DNA of 33,539 nt from Planctomycetes bacterium GWF2_42_9 (lineage in GTDB: Bacteria > Planctomycetota > Phycisphaerae > Sedimentisphaerales > UBA12454), in assembly GCA_001825675.1 (NCBI GenBank), contig MHYA01000047.1, positions 1 through 33,539 on the forward strand, written 5' to 3'. Numbering within the stretch: position 1 is the first letter of the stretch; every line of letters begins with the position of its first letter. Below are positions 1,016 to 20,702 of the stretch, piece by piece. A program made the position numbers and the translations under genes. The notes under the pieces were generated by a model that searched no databases, had not been told where the DNA came from, and saw only the letters and a list, made by a program, of their open reading frames with translations.

Positions 1016-1066
1016 TGTGATTATATAAGAGTTAACATTATTCAGTAGCAAAGGATTACCCGTGAA
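1010..1066 (+). repeat. Duplicated intergenic junction, copy 1
   Basis: The segment runs from the stop of gene 1 (CCT TGA, then TGTGAT) through a short AT-rich spacer to AAAGGA and a GTG start. It aligns over its whole length with 7849-7904. It holds the Shine-Dalgarno sequence (about 1050-1055) for the GTG start at 1062, which indicates that the junction was copied together with the genes. Confidence 0.7.
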
Positions 1067-2978
1067 AAGCGTAGTGGCTTTTATGTTGGTGTTAACAGTT
1101 AGCGGCAGTGCGTTTGCCTTAAGCCCGAATGCTTTTATGGGCACTATTGATAGTGATTGGGCTACCGGCGGCAACTGGACAAACGGCGCAGCCCCGACCA
1201 CAGAAGATGTAAGTATTAGAGCAGCAGCTGTTATTGCGCCAAGCACGGCAGCTTTCTCTAACATCCTTCGTGTTGGTAACGGAGTTTATGGGGCATCGGA
1301 GGTGGGGAGTATAGTAATAAATGGTTCACTGACTACCCGTTATGATATAAGAATCGCCGAACAGCCTGGCGTGAATGGTACAGTTACTGTAAATGCCGGT
1401 GCGATTCTTGATAATCGAACAAGCGCCGCGGTCGGTGAATTTGGTGTCGGCTATGGCGGCACCGGGACGCTGAATGTGTATGGCATTGTTTACACAAAAT
1501 CAATGGACATAACCAACTGGTACTCGCCGGGGACAAGCATTGGTACCGTAAATGTGTTTGCGGGCGGTGTTGTGGTTGATCAAGGCAGGTTAACGGTAGG
1601 AGGCTCAGAGTCATGGGGCGGCAACGGATCCCTGGTTATTTATCCGGGGGGTTCGTTTTCGTGCGGTGATAACTGGAATAGTAAACTGCAGAGTTGGATT
1701 GATCGTGGCGCTATCAGAACTATACCCGGGGCATTGCTTATTGTTACAAATAATTCAGGTAATCCTGGTAAAACTTTTACCGCTAAGGTTATTCCACAAA
1801 TTGCATCGGAACCATCTCCGGCTATCTCGGTAATGATTAATGATTCGATGCCTGTTCTTAGCTGGAAAGCAGGTATAAACGCTATTTCACACGACATATA
1901 TTTCGGTACTGATATAAATAAAATTGCAACTGCCCATCGTTTGGCTGGCGATTTCAATAATGACCGCACTGTGAATATTACGGACCTGTCAATTTTTTTA
2001 GAACAGTGGTTGGCGGCTCCTACTGCTGGTGTTCTCTCTGCAGATTTCGATGCCAGCGGCGATGTTGATTTTAATGATTTTGCGCGGCTTGCGGGCAACT
2101 GGCAGGCGTCTGCTGATTCGGAATCTAAGAGCAATCAGACGGATACCGGTTATATAGTTAGCCAGGAACTAACTCCAGGTGAGACGTATTACTGGCGAGT
2201 AGATGAGATTTCAAATTTTGGAGACGTCATTATCGGAGATATCTGGAGCTTTATTTATAATGGTATGAATCCGAAGATCGCATTAGATGCGTATTACATA
2301 GCTCCCAATGCGCACTCAGCTGTAACGCCAGCATCGGGGTTAATTCTTGATTGGTGGAGTGCACGACATCAAGCCATACTTAATCGTGTTGGGCAGGGTA
2401 ATGTTGATTTGATCTTTATCGGTGATTCGATTACACATGGCTGGGATGTCAGCGGTGTTGATGTCTGGCAGCAATACTATGCTGACCGCAACGCCGTAAA
2501 TATGGGATTTAATGGCGACCGTACTCAGCATGTGCTTTGGCGTCTGAACAATGGTGAGATCATGGGCATATCGCCGAAACTTGCTATCATCATGATAGGT
2601 ACAAACAATGCATACGGGTGGAATACCGCGATAGAAACCAGCGAGGGTATTATCGCAATATGCAAAGTGCTGCGTAATAAATTGCCGCAGACTAAAATCC
2701 TGATACTCGCGATTTTTCCGCGTTTTGACACGCAAACAGGCGCTCCTTCATCTGCGGCCATGCGTGAAATAAATGCCGAAGCGAGTAAGCGTGCTTCGGT
2801 TGTCGCCGATAACCAATGGATCTACTATATGGATATCAATGACCAATTCCTTGATGAGAATGGCGCATTGTTAGTAGATTTGATGCCCGATCTTTTGCAT
2901 CCTGGCGCTAGTGGCTACCATGTGGAGGCTGAAAAAATTGAGCCGATGGTGAAAAAGCTGATGGGTGAGAATAACTGA
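1062..2978 (+). CDS. Secreted repeat/dockerin-like protein with SGNH/GDSL hydrolase domain
   Basis: 638 residues from a GTG preceded by AAAGGA. Residues 1-19 form a signal peptide ending AFA. Residues about 24-240 are T5SS/PEP-CTERM-associated repeat sequence (GYGGTGTLNVYG-type units), probably a beta-helix. Residues about 250-290 and 350-398 are the two halves of a fibronectin-like domain (YFGTDINK ... YYWRVDE), and between them lies a dockerin-like EF-hand pair (DFNNDRTVNITDL from residue 297, DFDASGDVDFNDF near 330). Residues about 440-638 are an SGNH hydrolase: nucleophile Ser456 in GDSIT, the Gly of GFNGDR, Asn515 in GTNN, and Asp610/His613 in DLLHP. It probably removes acyl groups from an extracellular carbohydrate; the substrate is unknown. 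In the array this gene replaces the usual cargo domain with an esterase. No PEP-CTERM tail is visible. Confidence 0.88.
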   Translation: MKSVVAFMLVLTVSGSAFALSPNAFMGTIDSDWATGGNWTNGAAPTTEDVSIRAAAVIAPSTAAFSNILRVGNGVYGASEVGSIVINGSLTTRYDIRIAEQPGVNGTVTVNAGAILDNRTSAAVGEFGVGYGGTGTLNVYGIVYTKSMDITNWYSPGTSIGTVNVFAGGVVVDQGRLTVGGSESWGGNGSLVIYPGGSFSCGDNWNSKLQSWIDRGAIRTIPGALLIVTNNSGNPGKTFTAKVIPQIASEPSPAISVMINDSMPVLSWKAGINAISHDIYFGTDINKIATAHRLAGDFNNDRTVNITDLSIFLEQWLAAPTAGVLSADFDASGDVDFNDFARLAGNWQASADSESKSNQTDTGYIVSQELTPGETYYWRVDEISNFGDVIIGDIWSFIYNGMNPKIALDAYYIAPNAHSAVTPASGLILDWWSARHQAILNRVGQGNVDLIFIGDSITHGWDVSGVDVWQQYYADRNAVNMGFNGDRTQHVLWRLNNGEIMGISPKLAIIMIGTNNAYGWNTAIETSEGIIAICKVLRNKLPQTKILILAIFPRFDTQTGAPSSAAMREINAEASKRASVVADNQWIYYMDINDQFLDENGALLVDLMPDLLHPGASGYHVEAEKIEPMVKKLMGENN

Positions 2979-2985
2979 GGGAGAG

Positions 2986-5058
2986 ATGAAAAAAGAAGTA
3001 TTGTTTCTGGTGTCGATGTTTATTTTTGCCGGTGGAGCATATGGTGCCACATTTAACGGTACAATAAATAATAATTGGGCTACGGCTGGCAACTGGAATC
3101 CTGCTGTTGTTCCAGTTATTGGAGTTGATGCAGCACTTCAGGCGGGCGCTTTTGTTTTTTCAGGCACCACAGCTTATGCGAATATCCTTCGTGTCGGCTG
3201 GAGTTCTTTGCCACAAAAGACAGCGACTTTGATTATAGATGGTGGCGGCAGCTTATCTACCGGTCATGACATAAGGGTTGGCGAAGGAGCGGGCTCTACT
3301 GGCACGATCACTGTAAATGCCGGCGCAGTTCTTGATAATAGGACTAGCAGTTCCACTGGTGAGTTCGCTATTGGCTATGGCGGCACCGGCACACTGAATG
3401 TGTATGGCACTGTTTACACTGATTCAATGGATATAACCAACTGGGGATCACCTACCAGCAGTACTGGTACAGTAAATGTGTTTGCGGGCGGTGTTGTGGT
3501 GGATGCAGGGAGGCTAACGGTAGGCGGACCAGAGTCGTGGGGCGGCAATGGCTCTCTAGTTATTTATGCAGGTGGCTCGTTTTCGGCGGGCGATAATTGG
3601 AGTAGTAAGTTGCAAAGCTGGATCGCTCGTGGTGCTATCAGAGCCGAACCCGGCGCATTGCTTGTGGTAACAGATCACGGCAGTGATGCCGGAAAAACCT
3701 TTACCGCTGTTATGCCGACAACGGCATGGAATCCTTATCCTGCCGAGAATGAAGTTATTACCAGCACGACCCCCACACTTAGCTGGACAGGTGGTAACAC
3801 TGGCTCTTACGACATTTATTTCGGCACTGATATAAATAAACTTGTAAACGCCCGTTGTCTGACCGGCGATTTTAATGGCGATGGACAGGTAAATCTGACT
3901 GATCTGTCAACCTTTGCCCAGCAGTGGCTGACTGCTCCTGATGCTGGTGTTCTATCAGCAGATTTCGATGCTAGCGGTATCGTTGAAATTAATGATTTCG
4001 CACGGCTGGCCAGTAATTGGCAGACGATTGCTGGTGCGGAATATAAGGGCAATCAGGCTGGCAAAACATACGCAATTGCTTCATCGCTCACTGTCGGGCC
4101 GACCTACTATTGGAGAGTAGATATGATCGATACCGACAATCAGCTTCACATCGGCGAGGTCTGGCGCTTCAATTGCAGCACCCAGCATATGGTTGAATTG
4201 TTTAAGGACCCTTATTTCCAGCATGGCCTTCAAGTTTATAATCCCACGCCGGGGGCAACGGCCCCTGAAGGGATTTTAAAATGGAATGATGGTTGGCAGA
4301 AGCCCTCGTGGGGCTTTAGTCAGCTTGGTAGTATGCATGATATAAATGGTGTGGAAGCGGTACTGTTACCTTCATGTTCCTATAAATGGGAAAATACTTC
4401 AAAATATGTGATAATGGGGCCTGTGAATTCTACCGATTCCGATATTACTACTATGATCGATACAAGACAGGAACTGATGGCGGACCTCTGGTGGCCCGCG
4501 ATAGATTTTGGTCAGAACCTTTCCATTCAGTGCCCGTGGTTCAACGATATGTCGGCGTTGTGGTTTAATCTTGATGTGCGGATGCTCTCAGACCAGCATT
4601 GGAATGATCCGAGTACTCAGGGACAGACATTCTTTAAGATAGGGGGTATTTTTCAGGATTTGAACCCAACTTCTCCGGGCTATGGGGATATGCTGTGGAT
4701 ATCTCTTGGAGTCTACCGCAATGTTACTCCTAGCCGTCTCGATACGTATGATTTTACTATCAATGGTGATGTGGGGCCTGATGGCGGGCAGGGCAAATTT
4801 ATCTATCAAGCTGGTTCGACACACTTTACTGCCTCTAACGCGACATTGCAGGGTGGTGAATGGGTTAATTTTCATGGTGATTTAAAACCCTTGCTGCAGG
4901 ATGCATTGAATAAGGCCTGGCTCAATGGATACTTGGTTAATTCACACAGCGCCAGTAATTTTAAGCTTACGTCCTTTGGTCCCGGCTGGGAAAGTTCTTA
5001 CCGGTCAAGGGTCGAATTGCAGATCCGGAACCTGAGCTTTAGAGCTGTTGTGCCTTAA
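2986..5058 (+). CDS. Secreted repeat/dockerin-like protein with unknown C-terminal cargo domain
   Basis: 690 residues from ATG 2986. This start sits directly behind AGGGAGAG and gives a clean signal peptide (MKKEVLFLVSMFIFAGGAYG); the GTG at 2965 only adds a tail overlapping the previous gene. Layout: signal peptide; repeat module to about residue 240; fibronectin-like domain interrupted by an EF-hand pair (DFNGDGQVNLTDL from residue 295, then DFDASGIVEINDF); and the unknown cargo domain from about residue 403 to the end (starts 'VELFKDPYF', ends 'RNLSFRAVVP'). The first EF-hand loop has the classic D.N.D.....D spacing expected for calcium binding in type I dockerins. It lies 7 bases behind the upstream gene. 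Likely exported and attached to, or binding, extracellular polymer; enzymatic activity is neither shown nor excluded. Confidence 0.87.
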   Translation: MKKEVLFLVSMFIFAGGAYGATFNGTINNNWATAGNWNPAVVPVIGVDAALQAGAFVFSGTTAYANILRVGWSSLPQKTATLIIDGGGSLSTGHDIRVGEGAGSTGTITVNAGAVLDNRTSSSTGEFAIGYGGTGTLNVYGTVYTDSMDITNWGSPTSSTGTVNVFAGGVVVDAGRLTVGGPESWGGNGSLVIYAGGSFSAGDNWSSKLQSWIARGAIRAEPGALLVVTDHGSDAGKTFTAVMPTTAWNPYPAENEVITSTTPTLSWTGGNTGSYDIYFGTDINKLVNARCLTGDFNGDGQVNLTDLSTFAQQWLTAPDAGVLSADFDASGIVEINDFARLASNWQTIAGAEYKGNQAGKTYAIASSLTVGPTYYWRVDMIDTDNQLHIGEVWRFNCSTQHMVELFKDPYFQHGLQVYNPTPGATAPEGILKWNDGWQKPSWGFSQLGSMHDINGVEAVLLPSCSYKWENTSKYVIMGPVNSTDSDITTMIDTRQELMADLWWPAIDFGQNLSIQCPWFNDMSALWFNLDVRMLSDQHWNDPSTQGQTFFKIGGIFQDLNPTSPGYGDMLWISLGVYRNVTPSRLDTYDFTINGDVGPDGGQGKFIYQAGSTHFTASNATLQGGEWVNFHGDLKPLLQDALNKAWLNGYLVNSHSASNFKLTSFGPGWESSYRSRVELQIRNLSFRAVVP

Positions 5059-5073
5059 AGATAGTGTACAATA

Positions 5074-7854
5074 ATGAAAACAAAACTATCAGTTTTGGGT
5101 TTAGTGTTAGTATGTGCCGGCAGTGCATTTGGAATGTGGTTTAACGGAACCTTTAGCTCTGATTGGGGTACTACTGGCAACTGGAACCCCGCTCATGTGC
5201 CGACCATAGCGGATGAGGTTTATGGCTATTCGGTATCGAACCCAACGATTGCCTCTGGTACCAATGCGTTCGCGGCCTGGAATCCAATTGGTGGAGGGGT
5301 AACTCTCATCATCAATGGCAGTTATACCAGCGGTCAAAGGATGTCGATCGGTTACGGTTCCGGAACTGGTGTGGTTAATGTAAATACTGGTGGAGTTCTT
5401 AATCTTGCCGGAAACGACTTGTATGTTGGTGAGGGTGGCATAGGCGTTCTTAATGTCTCCGGCACTGTTAACGCTGGAGCAGTAGATATACTCGTGGCGA
5501 ATGCGGGCTCGGGCACAATAAATGTACTTCCCGGCGGTAGTGTCGTGAGTACAAGCAGGTTAACATTAGGTGACAGGGTGCCCGGAAGCCCCGGCACCGC
5601 AGCCCTTATCATTTCCGTAGGCGGTTCGTTTAGTTGTGCAGCTAACTGGGGTGATCTGGATGCCGCTGTTGCCGATGGCAGGATTCGTGCCACAGACGGA
5701 GCAGCACTTATAGTTGAAAATCACACAACTGATTCCGGTAAAACATTTACCGCTATTATACAAACAAGCACGTCGGATCCTTATCCAGCCGAAAACGAAG
5801 TAATTACCTGTACGACCCCAACGCTGAGTTGGAAAGGCGGCACCGTCGGCTCTTATGATGTGTATTTCGGCACTGATATAAATAAGATTGTAAACGCTCG
5901 CCGTCTGGCTGGTGATTTCAATAATGACCGCACGGTGAATCTGACTGACCTGTCAACCTTTTTCGAACAGTGGCTCACTGCACCTGCTGCCGGTATTTTC
6001 TCTGCAGATTTCGATGCCAGTGGCAATGTGGATATGAATGATTTTGCACGCCTCGCTGGTAATTGGCAGGCCGCCGCTGGCGTGGAATATAAAGGCAATC
6101 AGACGGCTAAAACATACTCAATTTCTTCACCGCTTACCGTCGGACTGACCTACTACTGGAGAGTAGATATGAGTGATGCCAACAAACATATTCGTATCGG
6201 TGAAGTCTGGCGTTTTAGCTGCGGCACAACGCACATGACCGAATTAATCAAAGACCCTTATTTCCAGCACGGCCTTAAGGTTTATTCGCAATTAATACCC
6301 GGCCCCAGTGCTTTTGAGGGTATTCTTAAATGGAATGACAGCTGGCAATTGCCGGATTGGCCGTTTATGCAGACTTTTGGCAGAGATGATTTGACTGGCG
6401 CTGTCGCGCAACTGCTGCCTTCCGGTTCGTACAAGTTTGAAAATGCATCCAGAAGTGTGGTTATAGGCCCTGTGAACTCAACTGACGCTGATTTCAGGAC
6501 AATGATCGATACACGGGGTGAAATAATTGACGGGAATCAATGGCCGAGCGTTGATATGAACCTAAATATTGCTTCGAGATGCCCGCAGCTGACAGAGATG
6601 TCGCAACTACGGTTCACTATGGATATTCGCCTGCTGCACAATGAGTATTTCGCCCCACAGAATAACGGTATTTGTACGCTTTTTAAGACGGCCCTTTGGG
6701 TACAGGATATGAATACCGCCTCGCCTGGATACGGTGATTTTTTCTGGCTTGTTTTTGCTGGTTACGATAGTAGAATCGGCTTTCCTACCGATGACAGGTA
6801 CGGTGCTATCAGCTGGCCAAGCCGCAATAAGCTGTTGTACGATATAGGTACAGAATATTCTACCGACCCCAATATCAATCCTGACCCCAGTAGCGACCTG
6901 TTTGCCGGCAAGTGGGTTCGCTTTAGCTGCGACCTGCTTCCAAAGATCTATCACGCTATGCAGACGGCATGGGAGGCTGGTTTGCTGCCGTATGCTGATC
7001 CAGCGAATTTCAAGATAACGAGCTTTGGCCCGGGCTGGGAAAGCAGTGAACGGGTCAAATGTGAATTCCAGCTTCGCAACTGGAGCCTAAAGGTAGTTGA
7101 CGGTACCAGCCAACCACCTGAACCCCAAACCGCAACCACGCTTCTGCACTTAACAAAAGGTTCTGACTGGGGTACCCTTGCCAACTGGGAATACCGTCCA
7201 CTCAGTGCGATGATGCCTGCTACGGCGCTACCGACCTTAATGAATAACGTTTATCTTTGGAATAGCGCAACGATTGCTTCCGACACCACAGTTCAAGCCG
7301 GGTGGGTTCCTGTCGGTTACAATGGTTGGCCTGCTACGACGTCAGTAGGTCTTACCATAAATGGTACCCTCACCCTCGGCGAAAGCACAGCAATCGGTGT
7401 GGGAAGTGGTGCTAATGGCACAATTACGGTCAATGCCGGCGCGACTCTTGATGCCCTGAGTAGCAGTATTAATCCCGATACGCATAATGTTGCCGGCCCA
7501 GGCGCTGTTACTGTTGGTGCAGGCGGTACTGGCGTGCTGAATGTCTTTGGCACTGTAATTTCCAAACGTATGGATATTCCCAACTGGTTTGCTGGCGCAG
7601 GTACCGTCAATGTGCTTGCTGGAGGTATTGTCCATATTACGGGTGCCTTAACCGTCGGCGGCTCAGAGTCGTGGGGCGGTGTTGGAAATCTGATCATTTC
7701 TCCAGGCGGTACAGTCATCTGTGGAGATAATTTTAGTGGCCAACTTCAGAGCTGGATCAATCGCGGTGCTATCCGTGCCGCACCAGGCGCAACGCTTGTG
7801 ACAACATGGCACACGGGCGTCGATCCCGGTGTTACATTTACCGCTCATCCTTGA
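5074..7854 (+). CDS. Secreted modular protein with two repeat modules flanking dockerin-like and cargo domains
   Basis: 926 residues, the longest of the array. Signal peptide MKTKLSVLGLVLVCAGSAFG; a first repeat module (to about 235) that has diverged from its neighbours; fibronectin-like domain with an inserted EF-hand pair (DFNNDRTVNLTDL from residue 281, then DFDASGNVDMNDF); and the unknown cargo domain from about 389 to 673 (FGPGWESSE near its end). After a short linker rich in Pro, Gln and Thr (GTSQPPEPQTATT) a second repeat module fills about 690-926. This second module resembles the N-terminal modules of the neighbouring genes and ends 'FTAHP', just where the PEP-CTERM paralogue at 18905 continues into its sorting signal. 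Probably extracellular. The chimeric architecture suggests recombination between array members. The Shine-Dalgarno sequence is weak, and the gene starts 15 bases after the previous stop, so translational coupling is plausible. Confidence 0.86.
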   Translation: MKTKLSVLGLVLVCAGSAFGMWFNGTFSSDWGTTGNWNPAHVPTIADEVYGYSVSNPTIASGTNAFAAWNPIGGGVTLIINGSYTSGQRMSIGYGSGTGVVNVNTGGVLNLAGNDLYVGEGGIGVLNVSGTVNAGAVDILVANAGSGTINVLPGGSVVSTSRLTLGDRVPGSPGTAALIISVGGSFSCAANWGDLDAAVADGRIRATDGAALIVENHTTDSGKTFTAIIQTSTSDPYPAENEVITCTTPTLSWKGGTVGSYDVYFGTDINKIVNARRLAGDFNNDRTVNLTDLSTFFEQWLTAPAAGIFSADFDASGNVDMNDFARLAGNWQAAAGVEYKGNQTAKTYSISSPLTVGLTYYWRVDMSDANKHIRIGEVWRFSCGTTHMTELIKDPYFQHGLKVYSQLIPGPSAFEGILKWNDSWQLPDWPFMQTFGRDDLTGAVAQLLPSGSYKFENASRSVVIGPVNSTDADFRTMIDTRGEIIDGNQWPSVDMNLNIASRCPQLTEMSQLRFTMDIRLLHNEYFAPQNNGICTLFKTALWVQDMNTASPGYGDFFWLVFAGYDSRIGFPTDDRYGAISWPSRNKLLYDIGTEYSTDPNINPDPSSDLFAGKWVRFSCDLLPKIYHAMQTAWEAGLLPYADPANFKITSFGPGWESSERVKCEFQLRNWSLKVVDGTSQPPEPQTATTLLHLTKGSDWGTLANWEYRPLSAMMPATALPTLMNNVYLWNSATIASDTTVQAGWVPVGYNGWPATTSVGLTINGTLTLGESTAIGVGSGANGTITVNAGATLDALSSSINPDTHNVAGPGAVTVGAGGTGVLNVFGTVISKRMDIPNWFAGAGTVNVLAGGIVHITGALTVGGSESWGGVGNLIISPGGTVICGDNFSGQLQSWINRGAIRAAPGATLVTTWHTGVDPGVTFTAHP

Positions 7855-7904
7855 TGTGATATGTGCAGGATAATATTATTGGGTAGAAAAGGATATACCG
7901 TGAA
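7849..7904 (+). repeat. Duplicated intergenic junction, copy 2
   Basis: Counterpart of 1010-1066: same stop context (CCT TGA TGTGAT), AT-rich spacer, AAAAGGA and GTG. The match decides the start of the next gene as the GTG at 7900 rather than the upstream ATG at 7861, which lies inside the duplicated spacer. Confidence 0.7.
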
Positions 7905-9957
7905 GAAAAGAGTAATGGTTTTTGCTTTAGTTTTATTGTTTGGCAGCAATGTATTCGCAACCTCAAGAGCATTCACGAATGCCATTAACACCGATTGGGC
8001 AACCGCGGGCAACTGGACCGGTGGGGTAGTACCATTCAGTGGCGATGATGTAGTGATTAGAGCTGCCGCTGTTATTTCAGCAAGTAATGCAGCCAAAGCG
8101 AATATTCTTCGTGTTGCTTGGAGTGCTTACGGGTCGATCGAGGTGGGGAGCATAGTGGTAAACGGCACTTTGACTACTTATTGGGATACAAGAATCGCTG
8201 AAGGAATTGGTGTAAATGGTACAATTACCGTAAATGCTGGCGCGACTTTTGATAACAGATCAAGCAGTTCAAGCGGTGAATTTGCTATCGGCATGGGCGG
8301 CACCGGCACGCTAAATGTGTACGGCACCGTTTATACAGATTCAATGGATATTACCAACTGGAGTTTGCCGGGTACGAGTACCGGTACAGTAAACGTATTT
8401 CCAGGCGGTGTTGTTGTGGATGCAGGCAGATTGACTGTCGGCGGCGCAGAGTCGTGGGGCGGCAATGGTTCTCTGGTCATTTATCCAGGTGGTTCTTTTT
8501 CGTGTGGCGACAATTGGAGTAATAAGCTGCAGAGCTGGATCGATCGCGGTGCTATCAGAGCTGCAGCCGGTTGCCGGCTTGTCGTAACTGCTCACACTGC
8601 GGATGTCGGTAAAACGTTTACCGCTGTTGAACTGCCAAAGAAAGCTTTAAGTCCGAACCCAACCGCTGGCAATACCATTAATTCCATAACTCCTACTCTT
8701 AGCTGGACAGCGGGCAGTGATGCGGTTTCTCATGAAATCTACTTTGGTACCAATTTATCTGCGGTAGCAAATGCAGCTCGAAGGACTGGTGATATAAATG
8801 GCGATGATCAAGTTAATTTTAAGGATATCTTAATAATGGCTGGTCAATGGCTGACGACTCCCGCAGTCTCCGGAGGTTCTGCGGATATTACCGGTGTTCC
8901 AAAAGTTGATTTAGCAGACTTTGTTGTAATGGCAATCGATTGGGGAAAAACAGGCGATGGTTTATTCAAAGGTTATCTTCAAAATGCCACCTATCAGCCT
9001 GGAACTCTTGTAAATAACACTACCTATTACTGGCGTGTTGATGAAATGGATTCCTTAGGTGTTGTTCACAAAGGCGATGTCTGGGCTTTTGCGTATGATT
9101 CTCGTGATGCAGTTGAGTTGCTTGTCGATCCTGATTTTCAGCGAGGATTCAATGTAGGTGATCCGACACCCGGAGCCTGGGTTGTTCAAGGAACTATGCA
9201 ATGGGATAGTACAAATGGGAATCCGGTCTGGTCACTTGGTCAGTGGAATACTTCTTACTCCATAGTTAATGCTGTTCCGGTACAACTGCCTTCAGGTTCG
9301 GTTGAATTTGCCAATGCGACCAAAAGGGTAGTAATGGGTCCAATCAACTCCTCGGATGCGGATCTGATCTTTATGGTTGATACTCGTTTAGAGACAACGG
9401 TGCCTGGAGTATCGTGGCCACATCTTCTGACAGAGCAGGATTTATCCAGCAGAACATATTTTCTCTCACAGTTGAGCGGATTGGATTTTCATGTCGAGGC
9501 CATTTTGAATTCTGCCAATCTTTATGATCCTGGTGCGGTAGGTCAGTTCTTAGTTTACATCATCATCCAGAATCGAAACACTGCATCAAGTGGTTACGGG
9601 AAATTCTACTGGTTTGGTATTGCTTTATATGACAATAGATATCCCAACCAATACCTGTCAACGACTATGTATTACCAGTATGATGCTGGTTCTGGTATGA
9701 TGCTGTGCCAGATGCCGCAGGCTGGGTTTGCCTCTGGGAAAATCCATGATGGCAACTGGGTCGTATTTGATGGCAATATACTGCCGAGAGTTATTGAGGC
9801 ATTCAATTATTTCAAATCTACTGGTGGTATTCCAGCTAACTCGAATATGAGTGATTTCTGTATTTCAGGAATAAACATGGGATGGGAAGTCCCTATAGCC
9901 CACTATCGCGGCGAAATTCAAGTTCGTAACTTAGGCCTGAAAGCGGTTCTTCCTTAG
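7900..9957 (+). CDS. Secreted repeat/dockerin-like protein with unknown C-terminal cargo domain
   Basis: 685 residues from GTG 7900, chosen because AAAAGGA lies at the right distance and the product then begins with a normal signal peptide (KKRVMVFALVLLFGSNVFA). Repeat module to about 240; fibronectin-like domain with an EF-hand pair (DINGDDQVNFKDI from residue 298). The second hand is degenerate: 'DITGVPKVDLADF' lacks one of the usual acidic ligands. The cargo domain runs from about 405 to the end ('VELLVDPDF' to 'RNLGLKAVLP'). Its fibronectin and linker segment is nearly the same as that of the truncated first gene in the window, more so than in the three genes between them. Predicted extracellular. 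It is the last gene of the array; convergent genes follow after 173 bases. Confidence 0.87.
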   Translation: MKKRVMVFALVLLFGSNVFATSRAFTNAINTDWATAGNWTGGVVPFSGDDVVIRAAAVISASNAAKANILRVAWSAYGSIEVGSIVVNGTLTTYWDTRIAEGIGVNGTITVNAGATFDNRSSSSSGEFAIGMGGTGTLNVYGTVYTDSMDITNWSLPGTSTGTVNVFPGGVVVDAGRLTVGGAESWGGNGSLVIYPGGSFSCGDNWSNKLQSWIDRGAIRAAAGCRLVVTAHTADVGKTFTAVELPKKALSPNPTAGNTINSITPTLSWTAGSDAVSHEIYFGTNLSAVANAARRTGDINGDDQVNFKDILIMAGQWLTTPAVSGGSADITGVPKVDLADFVVMAIDWGKTGDGLFKGYLQNATYQPGTLVNNTTYYWRVDEMDSLGVVHKGDVWAFAYDSRDAVELLVDPDFQRGFNVGDPTPGAWVVQGTMQWDSTNGNPVWSLGQWNTSYSIVNAVPVQLPSGSVEFANATKRVVMGPINSSDADLIFMVDTRLETTVPGVSWPHLLTEQDLSSRTYFLSQLSGLDFHVEAILNSANLYDPGAVGQFLVYIIIQNRNTASSGYGKFYWFGIALYDNRYPNQYLSTTMYYQYDAGSGMMLCQMPQAGFASGKIHDGNWVVFDGNILPRVIEAFNYFKSTGGIPANSNMSDFCISGINMGWEVPIAHYRGEIQVRNLGLKAVLP

Positions 9958-10130: not shown

Positions 10131-11690
10131 TCACTGTGCCGCATTGGTATGACCATTCCAGTCATCCGTTCTAAAAGGTGACGCAGGGAGACCTGCCATA
10201 TTGTAAATATTTCCGTTTGGAAAGGTATCCCATGCGTATCTCACGGCTGCAGGCTCGGCAACCAAAGGACTGGATACCACAATAGCTATGCCCTCTATAA
10301 TGGCATTTGCCCAAACAAATTTTTTATCTTTACCGGCAATTGCAAACCCGGTTGGTGTTTCACCTTTCGCAATTAGGCATGGAGCAGCGTGGTTGAAGAA
10401 GACTTTTATTTTTTGACCTTCTACCTGATACCCTGAATATAATGGGCCAGAATATTCAATCTTGTGGCCATAAGTGTTTGCCAATGCACACAGTGCAAGC
10501 CTGTGTCCCACATCCTTTTTGTTGGCGGGGTGAATATTATTTGCTTCGCCGAGGTCAATGGTCACCGCCATAGCGGTGTTTTTTAAACCGCAAGTCATCA
10601 ACTGGGCCTCTCTCAAATTTGCCCACCAGACATTATCTCGCGGTTCACCTTTGTATATTTCAACTTTTTGACCAGGATTATGATCTACAAAACTTGCGAG
10701 TTGAACAAAGTAAAACGGCATGTCAAACTGTTCGAAATCACATCTCCAATTATTTATCATTACTGGAAAGAGTTTTCTATACTGATAAGTAGAGTCGGCA
10801 TTTGATTCGCCCTGGTACCATATAACCCCCCTGATTTGGAAGGGCAGAATTGGAGCTATCATAGCATTATAGAGAGCGGCGGGTCTGTCCATATCTCTGG
10901 CTTTCCAAGGAACAGCCGGTTTTTCAGTATGGTTTTTCTCTGCTTGATTACAATCATTCAACCAGGAGTTATATATTCGGGCATATACGTCAATAACCGA
11001 ATGCAATTCATCATCGTTTTGGAGATATTCTATCCTGGTCCATGCTTGAGCTAAACTCCCGCCGTATGCACACATGATAAGGCCCGTGGGATAACCAGTT
11101 TTTTTATTAATTTCTTTTCCGAAATAATACCCAACTGCACTAAAGTGTTTTACGCTCTCGGGCGTGCAAATTGCCCATTGGCCGGAGATGTCTTTAAGAG
11201 GTTTTTCTGATGCATTTCGCGAAATAATGAATATGCGTATACTCTTATTATGTGAGTTTGCTATTTCTTCATCGCTACCCTGAACTTGCTGCAGTTTATC
11301 AAACCCTTGCATCGGCATTTCCATATTAGATTGGCCGGAACAAAGCCAGACTTCTCCGATTAAAACATTGTTAATAAAAAGTTCATTGTTGCCCTTAATC
11401 CTAATTTGATAGGGACCGCCAGCTTCTGGCGTTCTTACTCGCAGCAGCCATTTGCCTGACTTATCTGCAACAGTTTGATTGGCTGGCAACGAGTTGCTAT
11501 CAGCTTTCCAATCCACATGAATTGAGATCTTCTCTCCTGGCTCGGCGATTCCCCAAATTTTAACATGGCTTTGCTGCTGAAGAACCATGTTGCTGCCAAA
11601 GATACCGGCCAGTTTCACTTCGGCAAGCAACTGCGGGCATACAAAAAAAATTATCAAAACACAAAAACAGCAAATACCTTTAGTTTTCAT
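10131..11690 (-). CDS. Sialate O-acetylesterase-like (SASA/DUF303) carbohydrate esterase, secreted
   Basis: 519 residues with signal peptide (hydrophobic residues about 9-22, ending LLAEV). After an N-terminal beta-sandwich (about 24-110) comes the SASA-type SGNH catalytic domain: the GQSNME motif with nucleophile Ser121, 'WYQGESN' at about 291-297, and the catalytic His387 in 'NNIHPANKKDVGHRLA', all in the family's order and spacing. Such enzymes remove O-acetyl groups from sialic acid or, in environmental bacteria, from other acetylated glycans; the real substrate here is not readable. ATG at 11690 is preceded by GGAG. It is the third gene of a minus-strand operon, 27 bases behind the glycosidase-like gene, suggesting joint action on an acetylated polysaccharide. 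Confidence 0.9.
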   Translation of the reverse strand: MKTKGICCFCVLIIFFVCPQLLAEVKLAGIFGSNMVLQQQSHVKIWGIAEPGEKISIHVDWKADSNSLPANQTVADKSGKWLLRVRTPEAGGPYQIRIKGNNELFINNVLIGEVWLCSGQSNMEMPMQGFDKLQQVQGSDEEIANSHNKSIRIFIISRNASEKPLKDISGQWAICTPESVKHFSAVGYYFGKEINKKTGYPTGLIMCAYGGSLAQAWTRIEYLQNDDELHSVIDVYARIYNSWLNDCNQAEKNHTEKPAVPWKARDMDRPAALYNAMIAPILPFQIRGVIWYQGESNADSTYQYRKLFPVMINNWRCDFEQFDMPFYFVQLASFVDHNPGQKVEIYKGEPRDNVWWANLREAQLMTCGLKNTAMAVTIDLGEANNIHPANKKDVGHRLALCALANTYGHKIEYSGPLYSGYQVEGQKIKVFFNHAAPCLIAKGETPTGFAIAGKDKKFVWANAIIEGIAIVVSSPLVAEPAAVRYAWDTFPNGNIYNMAGLPASPFRTDDWNGHTNAAQ

Positions 11691-11717
11691 AATCTATCTC
11701 CAATAAAAAAAATAATA

Positions 11718-14624
11718 CTAGTTTGACGAAAAGTAAATCACTAATGTGTTTTTAGAACCGCCACGAACGCCGCTGTCATGCAGATCTGAGTATAAGCAGT
11801 TTAGTCCTTTGTTTCTTGGATAGCGATATGCCCTGATCTCAATAGGGCTGCCATTTATCCATGCTCTGATTGTCATTATTTTCGAGATGTCTATAACCGG
11901 AACGACCAAGAAAGCATGGTCGTCGAAGAATGGATCCATTCCATAGCCATAGGTTATAAATGGAAGATAAAACTCTGAGCTTAACCACCATTCTGATTTC
12001 TTACTTTTCGCAATTTCAGGCAATGAAGTTGAAATTTGACCGGGATTGGAATAATCAACATCTTGTGAAACAACCGATGACGAATTTTTAGATTTTAGAT
12101 GGATCAGTGTCGGTTGCTGCTCACTAAAGGCATTCTCAATATAACTGCCGCAGAAATTCGAAAGCGGTCCCAAAGAAGTCTGCTTGAAATTATTTGGCCA
12201 AAGCGGCATTTTAATGTTTTGGTCTCCTTCGAACAATGGGAAGTCATACTGCGGCGAATCTTTCCAGCCTAGAATATAATTTTTGTTAATGCCTTCAGAA
12301 TAGTTCGCATCTCTAACATACCATTTTCTGAGCTGGGTAGGCGCTAGTTCTCGCCGGAAAGTACATTGAAATACCAGATGGCTGGCTTTTGCACTGATGA
12401 GCTTTGTGTCTGTAGCATAAAACTGCCGCGGTGGCTGCTTCGGATAGTTGGCATCAACCGCTACAAAATTCGGCACTTTAATATTCGCTGGAAAATGAAT
12501 CTCGCAGAGTTCGGTTGTACCCTGAGGCATTGAGGTCTTGATTACATAATTGCCTTTTATCTTTTCCACCGTTCCAGGCAGGCCATACATTCTTGGAGCT
12601 GTAATTGTCAGTGGAGCCTTTACGATTTCAAGAACCAAGACTTGTTGAGCCGCAACTTCAACCCTCAGAGTTTCGCCGAGTTTAATAAATGGGCCATTCG
12701 GAGTTAGCCGGAGTCTTTCAACAGGATAAAGTTCTTTGATTTCACATAGGTCGGTCCCAGAAAGGCCCAGTTGCTCATTCAAAGGTATATCAACCAACTT
12801 ATTCCAGTATTGCGGGTTAACCACAAATATAAAACCTGAATCTGATTTGGTATGGCTGTAAACTTCAACGCCGCCCATCCCGGGATTGTCGCCGGTATGA
12901 TATGTCGTTGTCCAAAGGTTATAGTTCTGTTTTATGAATTTGATCCACTTACTGTAAAACGCGAACACCTCTTTCTGACGTTCAGGATTCAACTCGTCAA
13001 TCCAAGGTCTCACCTCGCCGAGGCAAATATTGGGACAAACAGCCCATGTGGATAATGCGCCATATTGATAATTCCGTATGTCTGGAACGATAGAATTTCG
13101 GCAACAAAAATATTGTGCATTGCAGAAAAAACGGTAAGGTAAAAAATAGGTGTAATGAAGATCGACCATTTGCTGTCTGCGGGAGTCATCAAGGAGGCGG
13201 GTCATATTCAATCCTTGCCAAGGCGAAGCTATGAAAGGATCAGTCAAGTAAAGGTTTGGCGCCCACCATGCCAATTTGGGCAGAAATTCTTTCCAGTTGC
13301 CCGAATTAGGCCAGATAAGCATCTCCGGAGAAACCTGATTGATTCTGTCCATCAGATTGATTAATCCCTTAATCTGATGATAAATGCTATATTCACCAGC
13401 AGGATGTCCATGATTTTCAGCAAAACAAAGTCCGATGTTTAGGAAATCCAAGCAGTGTATTTCGAAATTGAACTTTTTGGCCTCATTGACTACTGCTTCT
13501 TCATAGTATTTTACAAATTCCGGATTCCCAAAACAGAAACCGCCACTATTTTTTCCGTCCCTCCGGACCATTTGCCATTCGGGTTTGTTTAGAGAAATAT
13601 TACAAAAATTATAATGCGGGCAAAATAGTAAATTTGTGCCAGAATATCCACCAACTTTTACTCGCTTTGCTTTAGCAAAATCAACAAATTGACATATAAA
13701 ATTCGGATCCTGTTCTCCCGAACTCCAATCAAATACTCCAGGCCAAACTTGGTAATATTCCACACCCAGCTTACCGATGACTTCAATTTCACGTTTAAGC
13801 AGATCAGTGTTATAATTTAGTGTTGGGTGATCCTTCATAGTATAAAATATACTGCTCTGCTGCGGTTGAGTATAACGATTGTTAATGGAGGTGCTCAAGA
13901 CTAAGGGTCGGTTGAAACGAGGGGCAAATTGTTGTTGAACGTAAGAGTCGACAGCATCTACCATGCCGTCATCGTAGGTATAAGTGGCGTGTTTTTGCAA
14001 TTTTGCACTTCCAATGGTGAGGGAATGGCACTGATACAGTTGTCCAGCTCGAAGCGTAGTATAAGGTGGATAAAATATTCGAGTGATGCTACCATGGGAT
14101 CTAATAAAAGAAGCTGGGAAGTTCAGAGAGGCAAAAAAACCATTATCTTGGAAATAGTAAATTGCCGCGATATCCTGCAGCTCTGTTTTCGCAATAATGG
14201 GAGTAATCGAAGAACTCATATCAAACAAAAATATTTTATCTATCCCAATATCTTTCAACGGTGTAAGATAAAGAGTTTTGGTAGTCCTTGTAGGGGAATC
14301 CAGCTTGTAATTCAGTTCCCATTTAAACTCAGGAGTTTTGCCTTTAATAACAACTTGCTCTAGGTTTGAGGCGACCGATTCAATTTCTCCTTCATGCTTA
14401 AGATTCCGCTCGCCAGAAGTGACCATCCATGCGGCTCCCTCCAGTGCATCAATCTTGGAATTATTGAGAGATATTATCCTTTCGTAGATCCCATTCGGTT
14501 CGTAACGGATTTGCAGTTCTATGCCAGATCCGCGCAAAGTTGCTGTTCCAGCATAGACATTAAAATTAACGTTTATGAGAAACAAGAACAAGCATCTTTG
14601 GGATATTCCTTTTATTATGCCCAT
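11718..14624 (-). CDS. Large secreted glycoside-hydrolase-like protein (TIM barrel, clan GH-D-like)
   Basis: 968 residues from the ATG at 14624; the frame is open to 14690 but only the 14624 start (or 14642) gives a conventional signal peptide ending VYAG. The N-terminal 230 residues look like a beta-supersandwich. A TIM barrel follows (from 'NTDLLKREIEVIGKLGVEYYQVWPGVFDW' region, described by its ends NTDLL and VFDW), with 'HCLDFLNIG' on a central strand as a candidate nucleophile position (Asp near 393). C-terminal beta domains complete the protein. The layout is like clan GH-D enzymes (alpha-galactosidase-type), but I cannot assign a CAZy family, and the acid/base residue is not clear. Spacing to the upstream glycosidase is 93 bases and to the downstream esterase 27 bases. 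Role inferred: cleavage of an alpha-linked glycan outside the cytoplasm. Confidence 0.7.
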   Translation of the reverse strand: MGIIKGISQRCLFLFLINVNFNVYAGTATLRGSGIELQIRYEPNGIYERIISLNNSKIDALEGAAWMVTSGERNLKHEGEIESVASNLEQVVIKGKTPEFKWELNYKLDSPTRTTKTLYLTPLKDIGIDKIFLFDMSSSITPIIAKTELQDIAAIYYFQDNGFFASLNFPASFIRSHGSITRIFYPPYTTLRAGQLYQCHSLTIGSAKLQKHATYTYDDGMVDAVDSYVQQQFAPRFNRPLVLSTSINNRYTQPQQSSIFYTMKDHPTLNYNTDLLKREIEVIGKLGVEYYQVWPGVFDWSSGEQDPNFICQFVDFAKAKRVKVGGYSGTNLLFCPHYNFCNISLNKPEWQMVRRDGKNSGGFCFGNPEFVKYYEEAVVNEAKKFNFEIHCLDFLNIGLCFAENHGHPAGEYSIYHQIKGLINLMDRINQVSPEMLIWPNSGNWKEFLPKLAWWAPNLYLTDPFIASPWQGLNMTRLLDDSRRQQMVDLHYTYFLPYRFFCNAQYFCCRNSIVPDIRNYQYGALSTWAVCPNICLGEVRPWIDELNPERQKEVFAFYSKWIKFIKQNYNLWTTTYHTGDNPGMGGVEVYSHTKSDSGFIFVVNPQYWNKLVDIPLNEQLGLSGTDLCEIKELYPVERLRLTPNGPFIKLGETLRVEVAAQQVLVLEIVKAPLTITAPRMYGLPGTVEKIKGNYVIKTSMPQGTTELCEIHFPANIKVPNFVAVDANYPKQPPRQFYATDTKLISAKASHLVFQCTFRRELAPTQLRKWYVRDANYSEGINKNYILGWKDSPQYDFPLFEGDQNIKMPLWPNNFKQTSLGPLSNFCGSYIENAFSEQQPTLIHLKSKNSSSVVSQDVDYSNPGQISTSLPEIAKSKKSEWWLSSEFYLPFITYGYGMDPFFDDHAFLVVPVIDISKIMTIRAWINGSPIEIRAYRYPRNKGLNCLYSDLHDSGVRGGSKNTLVIYFSSN

Positions 14625-14717
14625 CAATAATCTTTCTGTCATTAGACGTAATTTGTGACAGATGAGAGATCTTAATAACGACAATGTCATTCAAATGTAT
14701 GCTAATCACGCGCGCAT

Positions 14718-18904: not shown

Positions 18905-19693
18905 TTATTTACGTCGACGTAAAAGCATGCTGCCAACTCCAACAAGAAGCATAGTAGCAGGTTCTGGAACCGCGGTGAAAGTTTTGCCCGCATCCAAAGT
19001 GTGGTTTGTTACAACAAGGGTTGCACCGGTTGCGGCACGTATATATCCATTATCTATGAAGTTCTGCAGTTGGCCACTCCAGTTGTCGCCACAGCTAAAT
19101 GAACCACCTTCATAAATAACCAGCGATCCATTACCACCCCACGCGCCTACCGTTAACCTACCTGAATCCACCACAATACCGCCCGCAAACACATTTACTA
19201 TACCGGTACTGCTAGTTGGTGATCCCCAGTTGGTTATATCCATTGACTTTGTGTAAACAGTGCCGTACACATTCAGCGTGCCGGTGCCGCCATAGCCGAC
19301 AGCCAATTCGCCGACCGCGGCGCTTGTCCTATTATCAAGAATCGCACCGGCATTTACAGTAATTGTACCATTCACGCCAGTTCCTTCAGCGATTCTTATA
19401 TCATAAAGGGTAGTCAGCGAACCATCTATTACTATGCTTCCCACCTCCGTTGGTCCATAAGCGCTGTTACCAACGCGAAGAATATTAGCGGAAGCTGTGG
19501 TGCTTTGTGCAATAACAGCGGCGGCTCTAATGCTTACATCTTCCGTGATCGGCGCTACGCCACTTGTCCAGTTGCCGCCGGTAGCCCAATCATCATTAAT
19601 AGTGCCCGTAAAAGCATTTGGGTTTAATGCGAAGGCATTACCAGCCAATGTCAAAACACATACCACAATAACCAATTTACTTGCGTTAAACAT
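18905..19693 (-). CDS. PEP-CTERM protein with T5SS/PEP-CTERM-associated repeats
   Basis: 262 residues from ATG 19693. That start is chosen over the longer open frame to 19819 because it has a strong GGAGGAAGAG site and gives a clear signal peptide (ASKLVIVVCVLTLAGNAFA). Residues about 25-235 are the repeat module, with GYGGTGTLNVYG and NGSLVIYEGGSFSCGDNW motifs; it is nearly the same as the N-terminal module of the gene at 1062. The end is a PEP-CTERM signal: VPEP, a hydrophobic stretch (ATMLLVGVGSMLL) and RRRK, the target of an exosortase (EpsH-type), which would anchor or process the protein at the cell surface. No exosortase gene is in the window. It has its own promoter and terminator, pointing to regulation apart from the flanking operons. 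The exact function of the repeat domain is unknown. Confidence 0.92.
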   Translation of the reverse strand: MFNASKLVIVVCVLTLAGNAFALNPNAFTGTINDDWATGGNWTSGVAPITEDVSIRAAAVIAQSTTASANILRVGNSAYGPTEVGSIVIDGSLTTLYDIRIAEGTGVNGTITVNAGAILDNRTSAAVGELAVGYGGTGTLNVYGTVYTKSMDITNWGSPTSSTGIVNVFAGGIVVDSGRLTVGAWGGNGSLVIYEGGSFSCGDNWSGQLQNFIDNGYIRAATGATLVVTNHTLDAGKTFTAVPEPATMLLVGVGSMLLRRRK

Positions 19694-20144: not shown

Positions 20145-20702
20145 ATGGAAACAAACGAATTGGGAGTACGCATCCGGCACTGTAGAAAGAAAGCAGGCCT
20201 TGGTATAAGGGAGTTGGCCAGAATTGCAGAAATGTCTCCAGCGGCCATATCTGCTATCGAAAGACAAAAAAGCAGCCCAACACTGGCCACTTTGCAAAGG
20301 ATACTGAGTGCTCTGGATACTAACTTTATGGATTTTTTTTCCTCCGATCAGGAAGCAGGAAGTGCGCCTGTCTTTGCATCTGAAGCGATGCAGAAGATAA
20401 GTGATGGCAACAGGACGTATGTATTGGTATTTCAGCGAAAACATGACATCAAATTTGAGATAATTATGGAAACAATTTTCTCAACAAAGAAACAAATCGC
20501 ATGGGAAGTTCATGATTTCGATGTGGGAGGCGTCATGCTTTCCGGTAGGCGAGCTTGCCTCGAAGTTGAGGGACTTGGTGAATGGCTGTTAGCGCAAGAT
20601 GATTCTTTTTATATACCGGCTAATCAGAAGCATCGTTTGACAAATTTAGATGAATCACCAATCAGGCTAATCACGGTATATTATCCAGCAAGACAACAGT
20701 AA
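20145..20702 (+). CDS. XRE-family transcriptional regulator with C-terminal cupin domain
   Basis: 185 residues. Residues about 8-62 are a lambda-repressor-type helix-turn-helix: 'GLGIRELARIAEMSPAAIS' then 'IERQKSSPTLATLQRIL'. Residues about 110-180 form a small cupin, with 'GRRACLEVEGLGEWLL' and the second cupin motif 'YIPANQKHRLTNLDESPI', where Pro, His and Asn are typical. This HTH_3 plus cupin_2 layout is common in regulators that sense a small metabolite, often a sugar or amino acid. It lies directly behind a strong promoter with a palindromic spacer and starts a co-directional run of metabolic genes, so it probably controls its own operon. Cytoplasmic DNA-binding protein; effector unknown. 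Confidence 0.9.
   Translation: METNELGVRIRHCRKKAGLGIRELARIAEMSPAAISAIERQKSSPTLATLQRILSALDTNFMDFFSSDQEAGSAPVFASEAMQKISDGNRTYVLVFQRKHDIKFEIIMETIFSTKKQIAWEVHDFDVGGVMLSGRRACLEVEGLGEWLLAQDDSFYIPANQKHRLTNLDESPIRLITVYYPARQQ

Follow-up and report, generated by a model that had tools for sequence, protein, structure and literature searches.

Local Pairs of PEP-CTERM and Dockerin-Bearing Proteins Sharing One Module in Planctomycete Genomes

We report that the PEP-CTERM gene at position 18905 of a planctomycete contig is, by its sequence features, one case of a locus-specific pairing that recurs across related genomes from the same order, in which a short protein ending in PEP-CTERM shares a module with longer, dockerin-bearing proteins of the same locus. 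The window, i.e., the whole stretch of DNA analyzed, comprises 33,539 nucleotides of Planctomycetes bacterium GWF2_42_9 (contig MHYA01000047.1). Such a twin locus consists of a short gene, composed of a signal-like start, the module and a PEP-CTERM tail, and at least one longer neighbor with the same module, additional enzymatic or binding domains and a dockerin-type EF motif. A first-pass annotation of the window had remarked on a fifth copy of the module with a PEP-CTERM end, and what stands out beyond that remark is the repeated pairing of such a copy with dockerin-bearing copies. The pairs suggest that enzymes could be held at the cell surface in this manner, possibly without the usual docking partner.

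Survey of Local Twins

The six surveyed genomes were picked for matching the profile of the shared module, hereafter the chassis, and the rates given here apply to such genomes. PEP-CTERM ORFs were defined by a rule of our own, which found 137; 134 were kept after shadow and short ORFs had been dropped. The unselected set consists of 83 regions (stretches of up to 20 kb) around the PEP-CTERM matches listed for the genome of the window (G000), G014, and G019. Fourteen further regions were kept out of the unselected counts: the window, contig C30 of the same genome, a region of G013, and 11 chassis-matched regions in G004, G012, and G014. One locus, L159, helped to suggest the twin idea and yet belongs to the unselected set, and the counts are also given without it.

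In the unselected regions, a longer sibling with the same module was found for 27 of 123 PEP-CTERM genes, against 10 of 325 controls and 6 of 187 signal-like controls (without L159: 25/119 against 10/324 and 6/186); the other 96 of the 123 had no sibling in their own region. Over all regions, 37 of 134 PEP-CTERM ORFs had a longer sibling in the same region, compared with 14 of 364 control ORFs of 180–350 aa, and at 60% identity or more the counts were 13/134 and 1/364. When regions were drawn at random (2000 draws), the sibling count averaged 5.0 and reached 11 at most. Siblings in other regions were recorded for 54/364 controls and 13/134 PEP-CTERM genes.

In the unselected regions, a dockerin-type tail was present in 28 of 32 siblings with complete ends versus 30 of 291 other long genes and 29 of 206 signal-like long ORFs, and over all regions in 35/46 siblings, 34/330 other long ORFs and 0/134 PEP-CTERM proteins, the tail motif having been composed after tails had been seen. 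A profile built from 10 tails outside the survey, themselves chosen by a motif, recognized 32/46, 36/330, and 0/134, respectively, and a looser motif gave a weaker contrast (26/46, 30/330, and 3/134). Pfam Dockerin_1 at E 0.05 matched only 6 of the 19 siblings scanned, internally in 3 of the 6. Several siblings carry domains of lectin-like type, namely Laminin_G_3 or F5/8 type C, and at one locus at least (L233) the stretch common to the twins overlaps the lectin-like match; some loci have several PEP-CTERM copies.

In a module tree, which was built quickly and has long branches, 9 of 13 loci each formed one side of a branch; the other 4 were not single clades, and 3 of these had both tail types. 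The tree requires 17 changes of locus, against a mean of 33.8 after shuffling (as low in 0 of 200 shuffles), and at least 16 changes of tail type. Among pairs with at least 45% identity, dS was at least 1 or saturated in 22 of 30, a result on which we rejected fresh duplication as a complete explanation, and dN/dS was 0.11–0.30 in the 23 pairs with a finite value. Pairs of the window belong to the less diverged ones (dS 0.62–0.97), and recent homogenization is therefore possible there. Since purifying selection on each twin alone would keep the likeness, the likeness is no proof of contact between twins.

Gene Array and PEP-CTERM Twin in the Window

TABLE 1. Positions and contents of the annotated features of the window.
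Feature	Position	Strand	Content
Cut gene, truncated by contig end	2..1015	+	Fn3 tail; GH12-like cargo (about 146-1012)
Gene 1	1062..2978	+	Signal peptide; chassis 1119-1787; Fn3 with inserted dockerin 1806-2261; SGNH/GDSL esterase domain about 2268-2975
Gene 2	2965..5058 (ATG at 2986)	+	Chassis 3046-3711; Fn3 with dockerin 3727-4179; GH12-like cargo 4189-5055
Gene 3	5074..7854	+	Diverged chassis 5134-5757; Fn3 with dockerin 5773-6225; GH12-like cargo 6235-7098; second chassis 7135-7848
Gene 4	7861..9957	+	Chassis 7957-8628; Fn3 with dockerin (below the Pfam cut-off) 8647-9099; GH12-like cargo 9109-9954
Neighboring genes	10131..17234	-	SASA esterase; 990-aa protein without Pfam match at E 1e-5; F5/8C + GH31/melibiase-like
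PEP-CTERM twin	18905..19693	-	Signal peptide; chassis 18971-19627; PEP-CTERM tail 18908-18973
XRE-type HTH + cupin regulator	20145..20702	+	Divergent from the PEP-CTERM twin

The array consists of four complete genes and, in addition, a fifth cargo gene broken off by the contig end (Table 1), and the genes are joined by direct repeats of 238–300 bases with 74–80% identity. The common layout that the first-pass annotation gave for genes 1–4 holds: each starts with a stretch that looks like a signal peptide by eye, followed by the chassis, a beta-repeat module of about 220 aa, and by an Fn3-like domain with an insert; the insert, described then as an EF-hand pair, is now assigned as a type I dockerin. 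The SGNH esterase ending was confirmed in gene 1 (Pfam SGNH/GDSL, 89.1 bits). The "unknown domain" said to end three genes, hereafter the cargo, is the last domain of genes 2 and 4; in gene 3, a second chassis copy comes after it.

Dockerin_1 (PF00404, cut-off 22.9) scored 24.1, 27.4, and 27.9 bits in genes 1, 2, and 3, and 17.9 bits, under the cut-off, in gene 4. The dockerin is inserted between the YFGT and YYWRVD strands of the Fn3-like domain, whose separation is 102–103 residues in genes 1–4 versus 36–48 in uninterrupted relatives (n = 15, from a pattern search of other loci). This position inside Fn3 is seen in the window and also in a single gene of contig C30; in most other loci the dockerin-type motif is C-terminal.

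With regard to the chassis, the earlier reading needs revision: the repeat belongs to a known kind and is close to the described T5SS/PEP-CTERM-associated repeat TIGR04393 (NCBIfam). Scores below its cut-off of 23 were obtained for gene 1 (16.6 bits), gene 2 (17.3), and the PEP-CTERM gene (20.5), with no match in genes 3 and 4; gene 1 together with its neighbors reached 24.8 bits. TIGR04393 is a model of the repeat only and is silent on paired PEP-CTERM and dockerin ends. The chassis of the PEP-CTERM twin is 78% identical in amino acids to that of gene 1, and the N-terminal chassis of gene 3 shows only 38–45% identity to the other five copies. Different C-terminal parts (PEP-CTERM, half-dockerin, Fn3 plus others) follow the chassis in other genomes, as the annotation had expected, so that the opposite case of a chassis never bearing different C-terminal domains does not apply. 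We infer that the chassis may serve as a common surface "platform".

Genes were compared with identity profiles, the best single break per pair, and shuffles, which demonstrate uneven identity and not recombination as such. The cut gene and gene 4 share 80% DNA identity up to base 254 and 44% beyond, with the break inside the cargo. The best break of genes 2 and 4 (3718) is at or near a module border, that of genes 2 and 3 (4465) is inside the cargo, those of genes 1 and 2 (1386) and genes 1 and 4 (1722) are within the chassis, and those of genes 1 and 3 (1899) and genes 3 and 4 (5923) are in or near the Fn3-dockerin part; for the cut gene and gene 2, a clear break was not found (51/500 shuffles). 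Given this mosaic identity, cargo, chassis, and Fn3-dockerin parts of the window copies were probably swapped by recombination or gene conversion. The mosaic is most simply explained by module exchange, as proposed earlier; some breaks coincide with module borders, and others fall inside modules.

The PEP-CTERM end of the gene at 18905, which lies 9–16 kb from the array on the opposite strand, was verified, with its PEP, hydrophobic stretch, and basic end, by PF07589 (25.4 bits; cut-off 20.7). A homolog of the divergent regulator (101 of 183 aligned residues identical) lies beside the chassis array of G013. The glycan-related surroundings described in the first pass were also found: a SASA esterase, a GH31/melibiase-like protein, an NPCBM protein, an SSF transporter, and a sugar oxidoreductase. 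A secreted orphan at 17716-18666 was considered, on a likeness seen by eye, as a remote relative of the cargo and rejected (hhalign probability 2.8). In a pattern search of the window for a sigma-54-like promoter common to the twins, the sole match (22541, minus strand) was not upstream of any twin.

The genome has an estimated contamination of 7.05% and a completeness of 92%, and the GC content of the window (0.443) lies inside the range found for 28 further stretches of the same assembly (0.378–0.455), which fits, and does not prove, membership. Bin contamination was considered in this regard; a second array on another contig (C30) makes the finding independent of the window contig. The second array contains chassis + Fn3[dockerin] + beta-helix, chassis + SGNH + dockerin, and chassis + PEP-CTERM.

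Predicted Fold of the Cargo Domain

The cargo matches no Pfam family, and its AF2 model (pLDDT 87.4) is predicted to resemble a jelly roll of the GH12/GH11 type. In a Foldseek search with this model, GH12 structures ranked first and some GH11 were also listed (E 3e-9, probability 1.00), but the TM-scores of the ten best were only 0.40–0.44 and the rmsd was 9–10. Glycoside hydrolase family 12 (clan GH-C) is the nearest predicted fold, with weak TM-scores; a sequence match to PF01670 was absent both in G000 at E 10 and among the 16 members of the cargo family, and the catalytic pair is only putative. The Glu of the GWE motif, the one invariant Glu, is conserved in 16 of 16 members. With respect to the two catalytic glutamates of GH12, it is a candidate for the acid/base and an Asp is a candidate for the nucleophile, an equivalence judged by eye against GH12 motifs; in gene 4, the YGD motif has Lys in place of its conserved Asp. 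The family is found in several phyla, and in 12 of 12 loci from the genome-collection scan the cargo is a stand-alone, apparently secreted protein. The cargo appears to represent a jelly-roll-like family outside Pfam.

GH12 also tops the Foldseek list for the full-length model. Two Fn3 structures (probability 1.00) and a carbohydrate-binding-module structure, 2c26 (E 2.5e-5, TM 0.14, rmsd 14.4), are in that list; insulin receptors and antigen I/II were rejected (model TM 0.08–0.12, rmsd over 20).

Sorting and Docking Components

The genome of the window has at least 88 PF07589 matches at E 0.05, 39 Dockerin_1 matches at E 0.01, and two matches to exosortase (EpsH, PF09721), which was present in all six genomes searched. 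Cohesin (PF00963) at E 0.01 was absent from 13 genomes of the family, including G000; since the latter is 92% complete, the absence is not final. Two of 40 genomes (G014 and G033) have cohesins, and the partners of the dockerins may therefore be lost, missed, or on another organism.

The tail at 18905 and the exosortase agree with PEP-CTERM/exosortase sorting (Haft et al., 2006, PMC1569441). The available part of that paper describes the tail as a module that has expanded within lineages and PEP-CTERM proteins with few other recognizable domains, and its described features do not include an adjoining gene with the same N-terminal module and a dockerin-type tail. Cellulosome-type complexes, including that of Limihaloglobus with a scaffoldin-like protein and 13 dockerin fusions (PMC11557425, available part), have dockerins on secreted glycan-related proteins, as here, and type I dockerins were found above the cut-off in genes 1–3; unlike in such systems, no cohesin was found in G000, and the dockerin of the window sits inside Fn3. 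The present system also resembles the "planctosome" proposed in freshwater Planctomycetes, a surface complex of dockerin proteins without a role in cellulose use (PMC6461901). The available text of that proposal involves cohesins and peptidases and does not describe a PEP-CTERM twin, and a cohesin anchoring protein was not found in G000.

Discussion

On sequence evidence, we give somewhat less than an even chance to the explanation in which the PEP-CTERM twin serves as the anchor of the module and the dockerin-bearing twin delivers its enzyme or binding domains to a ligand or assembly common to both. An exosortase would process the PEP-CTERM twin and leave it at the cell surface or matrix, and the shared module, a beta-repeat or lectin-like domain, would bind either itself or one glycan that is the same for both twins. 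Longer twins with an SGNH esterase, a GH12-like domain, a beta-helix domain, an FAD oxidoreductase, etc., would then gather at the anchored twin without a cohesin scaffold of the same genome. A related but rather unlikely account does without contact: the module binds a glycan, the PEP-CTERM twin holds the substrate, and released enzyme twins find the same glycan. The lectin-like domains of several siblings, with the overlap in at least one, the glycan-acting families of cargo and neighbors, and the purifying selection on twins are consistent with this; on the other hand, locus-specific grouping is expected equally under self-assembly and, to our knowledge, the T5SS-type repeat is not a known glycan-binding fold. 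That the twins are incidental products of domain shuffling and duplication within a locus, in which tandem copies, arising often in secreted-protein arrays, swap tails with no functional coupling, would accord with the mosaic identity, the tandem chassis copies, and the multiple PEP-CTERM copies of some loci. We regard it as improbable in view of the much rarer siblings of controls in the same regions, the dS and dN/dS values, and the frequency of dockerin tails on siblings.

An ordinary cohesin-dockerin assembly like the cellulosome or planctosome, with a cohesin protein that escaped notice because the genome is incomplete, has in its favor the 39 dockerin matches, the cohesins of two other genomes, and the published planctosome proposal (PMC6461901, available part), but cohesin is absent also from the other 12 family genomes searched and such an assembly does not predict the twin pattern, and we consider this account decidedly improbable. 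There is likewise a low probability that the GH12-like cargo works as an endoglycanase in arrays of plain secreted multidomain hydrolases, with the chassis merely as a linker: the leading position of GH12 in the Foldseek list and the invariant Glu argue for it, whereas the TM-scores and rmsd, the missing Pfam match, and a candidate second acid that is an Asp, replaced by Lys in gene 4, argue against it, and the PEP-CTERM twins are left unexplained.

For a genome in which at least 88 PEP-CTERM matches and 39 to dockerin stand against none to cohesin, the pairing gives a testable hypothesis for both tags. The pairing of the two tags is repeated, mostly old, and locus-specific, and it raises the questions of what each module binds and of whether the longer twin is retained by the anchored one. 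Anchoring by twins could extend to cohesin-free docking throughout the order, with a private self-recognizing module per locus on the exosortase-anchored PEP-CTERM twin and on the dockerin-bearing enzyme twins, although we think this doubtful. If it is true, each glycan program would assemble its own surface complex with a private connector, and a single modular surface system would have PEP-CTERM and the dockerin tail as its two alternative ends.

The array in the window

The array is of a known modular kind. Its cargo domain, GH12-like by predicted fold, lies outside Pfam, and its dockerin is internalised. The window is the entire contig C47 of draft assembly G000, which comprises 214 contigs totalling 4.86 Mb (completeness 92.09%, contamination 7.05%).

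Features of the window and of related contigs and loci
Feature	Contig or locus	Position	Strand	Composition
Cut gene	window	2-1015	+	ends in cargo
Gene 1	window	1062-2978	+	signal-like start, chassis, Fn3-like with dockerin, SGNH/GDSL at end
Gene 2	window	2965-5058	+	signal-like start, chassis, Fn3-like with dockerin, cargo at end
Gene 3	window	5074-7854	+	signal-like start, chassis, Fn3-like with dockerin, cargo, second chassis
Gene 4	window	7861-9957	+	signal-like start, chassis, Fn3-like with dockerin, cargo at end
990-aa protein	window	11718-14690	-	
Orphan, 316 aa	window	17716-18666	-	signal-bearing
PEP-CTERM gene	window	18905-19693	-	chassis, PEP-CTERM
HTH-cupin gene	window	20145-20702	+	
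HTH-cupin gene	L065 (G013)	6010-6567	-	
Array gene, 1153 aa	C30 (G000)			chassis, Fn3[dockerin], beta-helix
Array gene, 526 aa	C30 (G000)			chassis, SGNH, dockerin
Array gene, 259 aa	C30 (G000)			chassis, PEP-CTERM
L159	G019:C1	185000-204999		
Cohesin matches	G014:C1	1003495-1004697		
L207	G014:C1	1008000-1027999		
Sibling in L207	L207	2528-7057		

In each of genes 1-4 the chassis, a shared beta-repeat module, is about 220 aa long. The EF-hand pair that the first-pass annotation saw inserted in a fibronectin-like module is a dockerin that separates the YFGT strand of the Fn3-like domain from its YYWRVD strand; the span between them is 102-103 residues with the insert versus 36-48 in 15 uninterrupted relatives found by pattern, and a pattern search gave a fifth such case on contig C30 of the same genome. 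The annotation's view that three complete genes end in the cargo holds for genes 2 and 4 and fails for gene 3, while its SGNH ending and its repeat-module copy with a PEP-CTERM end were both recovered.

Pfam matches were obtained for nine of the 10 neighbouring proteins scanned (SASA, F5/8C with GH31/melibiase-like, HTH-cupin, DegT, AP_endonuc_2, GFO/IDH/MocA, SSF, NPCBM and PIG-L); the 990-aa protein beside glycan enzymes had none at E 1e-5. The orphan gave nothing in Pfam or NCBIfam at E 1; by eye its layout is similar to that of the cargo, but this found no support in hhalign. Both the window start and the end (30089) of contig C71 of another genome, G013, break off within an array gene, as is expected where similar copies break assemblies, and either genome may hold further array copies.

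Cargo domain

The cargo alignment had 16 members, four from the window and 12 from as many loci found by scanning a genome collection (43 stretches matching one of two peptide patterns). For the structure model made from it (mean pLDDT 87.4), a Foldseek search of solved structures placed family 12 cellulases first and also listed some xylanases of family 11. The E-values reached 3e-9 at probability 1.00, but the ten best had model TM-scores of only 0.40-0.44 and rmsd 9-10; family 12 was again at the top for the full-length gene 2 model (mean pLDDT 70.3, low in the dockerin part). The cargo gave nothing at a meaningful level against Pfam, PF01670 included, and its profile had a single chance-level match among PDB sequences (E 0.19). 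All 16 members share the Glu of the GWE motif. In the YGD motif, gene 4 has Lys in place of Asp and the two Clostridia rows have Glu or Gln; by motif comparison, we take the GWE Glu and the YGD Asp to be putative counterparts of the family 12 catalytic pair.

At all 12 outside loci the cargo occurs without chassis; its reading frame has 307-368 residues at 11 of them and 514 at one. The record titles name Sumerlaeota, Armatimonadetes, Verrucomicrobia, Sedimentisphaerales, Hydrogenedentota, Clostridiales or Clostridia, and one unassigned bacterium. Cargo matches occur in 6 of 392 genomes sampled from the phylum, G000 counted; in one of the six, G409, the cargo lies behind another region within a long frame.

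Mosaic identity and age of the modules

Protein identity among the chassis of genes 1, 2 and 4 and of the PEP-CTERM gene is 64-78%, and both gene 3 chassis share 38-50% with the remaining ones. In the Fn3-dockerin part, by contrast, genes 2 and 3 share 74% identity, and gene 4 shares only 38-41% with the others. At the DNA level, genes 2 and 3 have an identity of 0.75-0.84 across Fn3-dockerin, flanked by poorer chassis and cargo; identity drops from 0.69 to 0.49 between genes 2 and 4 (break at 3718/8638) and from 0.80 to 0.44 between gene 4 and the cut gene (break at 9214/254), each drop being reached in 0/500 shuffles. In other pairs the breaks lie within modules. The copies form a mosaic, most simply explained by recombination or conversion. 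Uneven constraint adds to this pattern, but synonymous identity shifts along with it in several pairs.

Among 30 module pairs at ≥45% identity, dS was at least 1 in 22 (seven of these saturated), the three window pairs having 0.62-0.97; dN/dS was 0.11-0.30 in the 23 with a finite value. In a quick tree of 53 chassis-like modules (18 PEP-CTERM, 32 other, three cut) with several long branches, nine of the 13 loci holding at least two modules are each set apart from the rest by a single branch (in one of the nine the modules are repeats of a single gene), and locus changes number 17 versus a shuffled mean of 33.8 (as low in 0/200 shuffles). Tail type changes at least 16 times on this tree, three loci bearing both tail types are non-clades in it, and the G013 module is nested in the window group. 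PEP-CTERM and other copies have thus originated, or been homogenised, for the most part separately at each locus, and purifying selection has since maintained most pairs.

Chassis in other genomes

With G000 counted, the chassis profile matched 15 of 98 genomes at E 0.001, 23 of 161 genomes of the order at E 1e-6 and, with up to seven candidates scored per genome, at least three of 392 sampled from the phylum at E 1e-8. Among matching genomes only G013, of a different family, has a close chassis (183/221 residues identical to gene 1, 189/218 to the PEP-CTERM gene), followed by an uninterrupted Fn3 and a C-terminal half-dockerin; its second chassis gene is truncated at a contig end. Elsewhere, the survey of following domains that the first-pass annotation had proposed gave PEP-CTERM, Fn3-like sequence with half-dockerin, and other domains. 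HTH-cupin genes near the chassis genes of G000 and G013 are identical at 101 of 183 aligned residues, and a regulator common to both loci is possible.

PEP-CTERM genes with longer siblings

Another array, with a chassis variant peculiar to it, lies on contig C30, and we therefore surveyed such regions more widely: 94 stretches surrounding either a PEP-CTERM gene or a chassis match (G000, G004, G012, G014, G019), which with the window, C30 and G013 made 97 regions. A sibling was a longer non-PEP ORF of the same region matching at least half of the module (BLASTP, E 1e-6) with ≥80 residues beyond it. Such siblings were found for 37 of 134 PEP-CTERM ORFs (a crude rule classed 124 as signal-like) versus 14 of 364 control ORFs between 180 and 350 aa long, or 8 of the 210 signal-like controls; at ≥60% identity the counts were 13/134 versus 1/364, and for siblings in other regions 13/134 versus 54/364. 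The 83 regions unselected for chassis gave 27/123 versus 10/325 (6/187 signal-like), namely 9/30 versus 5/121 in G000, 10/57 versus 5/127 in G014 and 8/36 versus 0/77 in G019; without locus L159 they gave 25/119 versus 10/324 (6/186 signal-like). For these 27 paired genes, from 26 unselected regions, the nearest sibling was on the same strand and no more than 300 bases away in 14, and no more than 2000 in 23, and the module was N-terminal in 26 of the 34 distinct siblings and internal only in eight. At L159, PEP-CTERM twins match, at 92% and 87% identity, modules in proteins of 1409 and 1624 aa that also carry FAD-oxidoreductase and F5/8C domains and have dockerin tails.

A dockerin-type tail motif, written after tails had been viewed, was sought in the last 95 residues and found in 35 of the 46 siblings whose 3' end is complete, versus 34 of 330 further ORFs at least 450 aa long, and in 0/134 PEP-CTERM proteins; in unselected regions the counts were 28/32 versus 30/291 (29/206 signal-like). 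A check profile of 10 tails from loci outside the survey, themselves picked by motif, matched 32/46 siblings, 36/330 other long ORFs and 0/134 PEP-CTERM proteins at E 0.05, and 28/46, 28/330 and 0/134 at E 0.001. Pfam Dockerin_1 at E 0.05 matched six of 19 siblings scanned, internally in three of the six. Siblings lacking a C-terminal tail include genes 1-4 and the C30 beta-helix gene, where the dockerin is internal.

Partners and significance

Full-text searches for PEP-CTERM together with dockerin, also restricted to Planctomycet, and for PEP-CTERM with Sedimentisphaer found nothing; since most subscription journals fall outside their scope, this is no proof that the twin pattern is unpublished. 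The match for exosortase with dockerin concerns methanotrophic archaea, and PMC12078418 names PEP-CTERM in its reference list only.

Exosortase was present in 6/6 genomes searched, twice in G000, where Dockerin_1 at E 0.01 has at least 39 matches (150 of 171 candidates scored). A cohesin search found none in 13 genomes of the family, including G000 (92.09% complete); cohesin matches occurred in 2 of 40 genomes, G014 and G033. In G014 they are some 6 kb away from the closest twin-locus sibling, in L207, and therefore a cohesin and a twin docking scheme may meet there. The main point of interest is the recurrence of PEP-CTERM/dockerin twins with locus-specific modules, for which we infer a role in docking.
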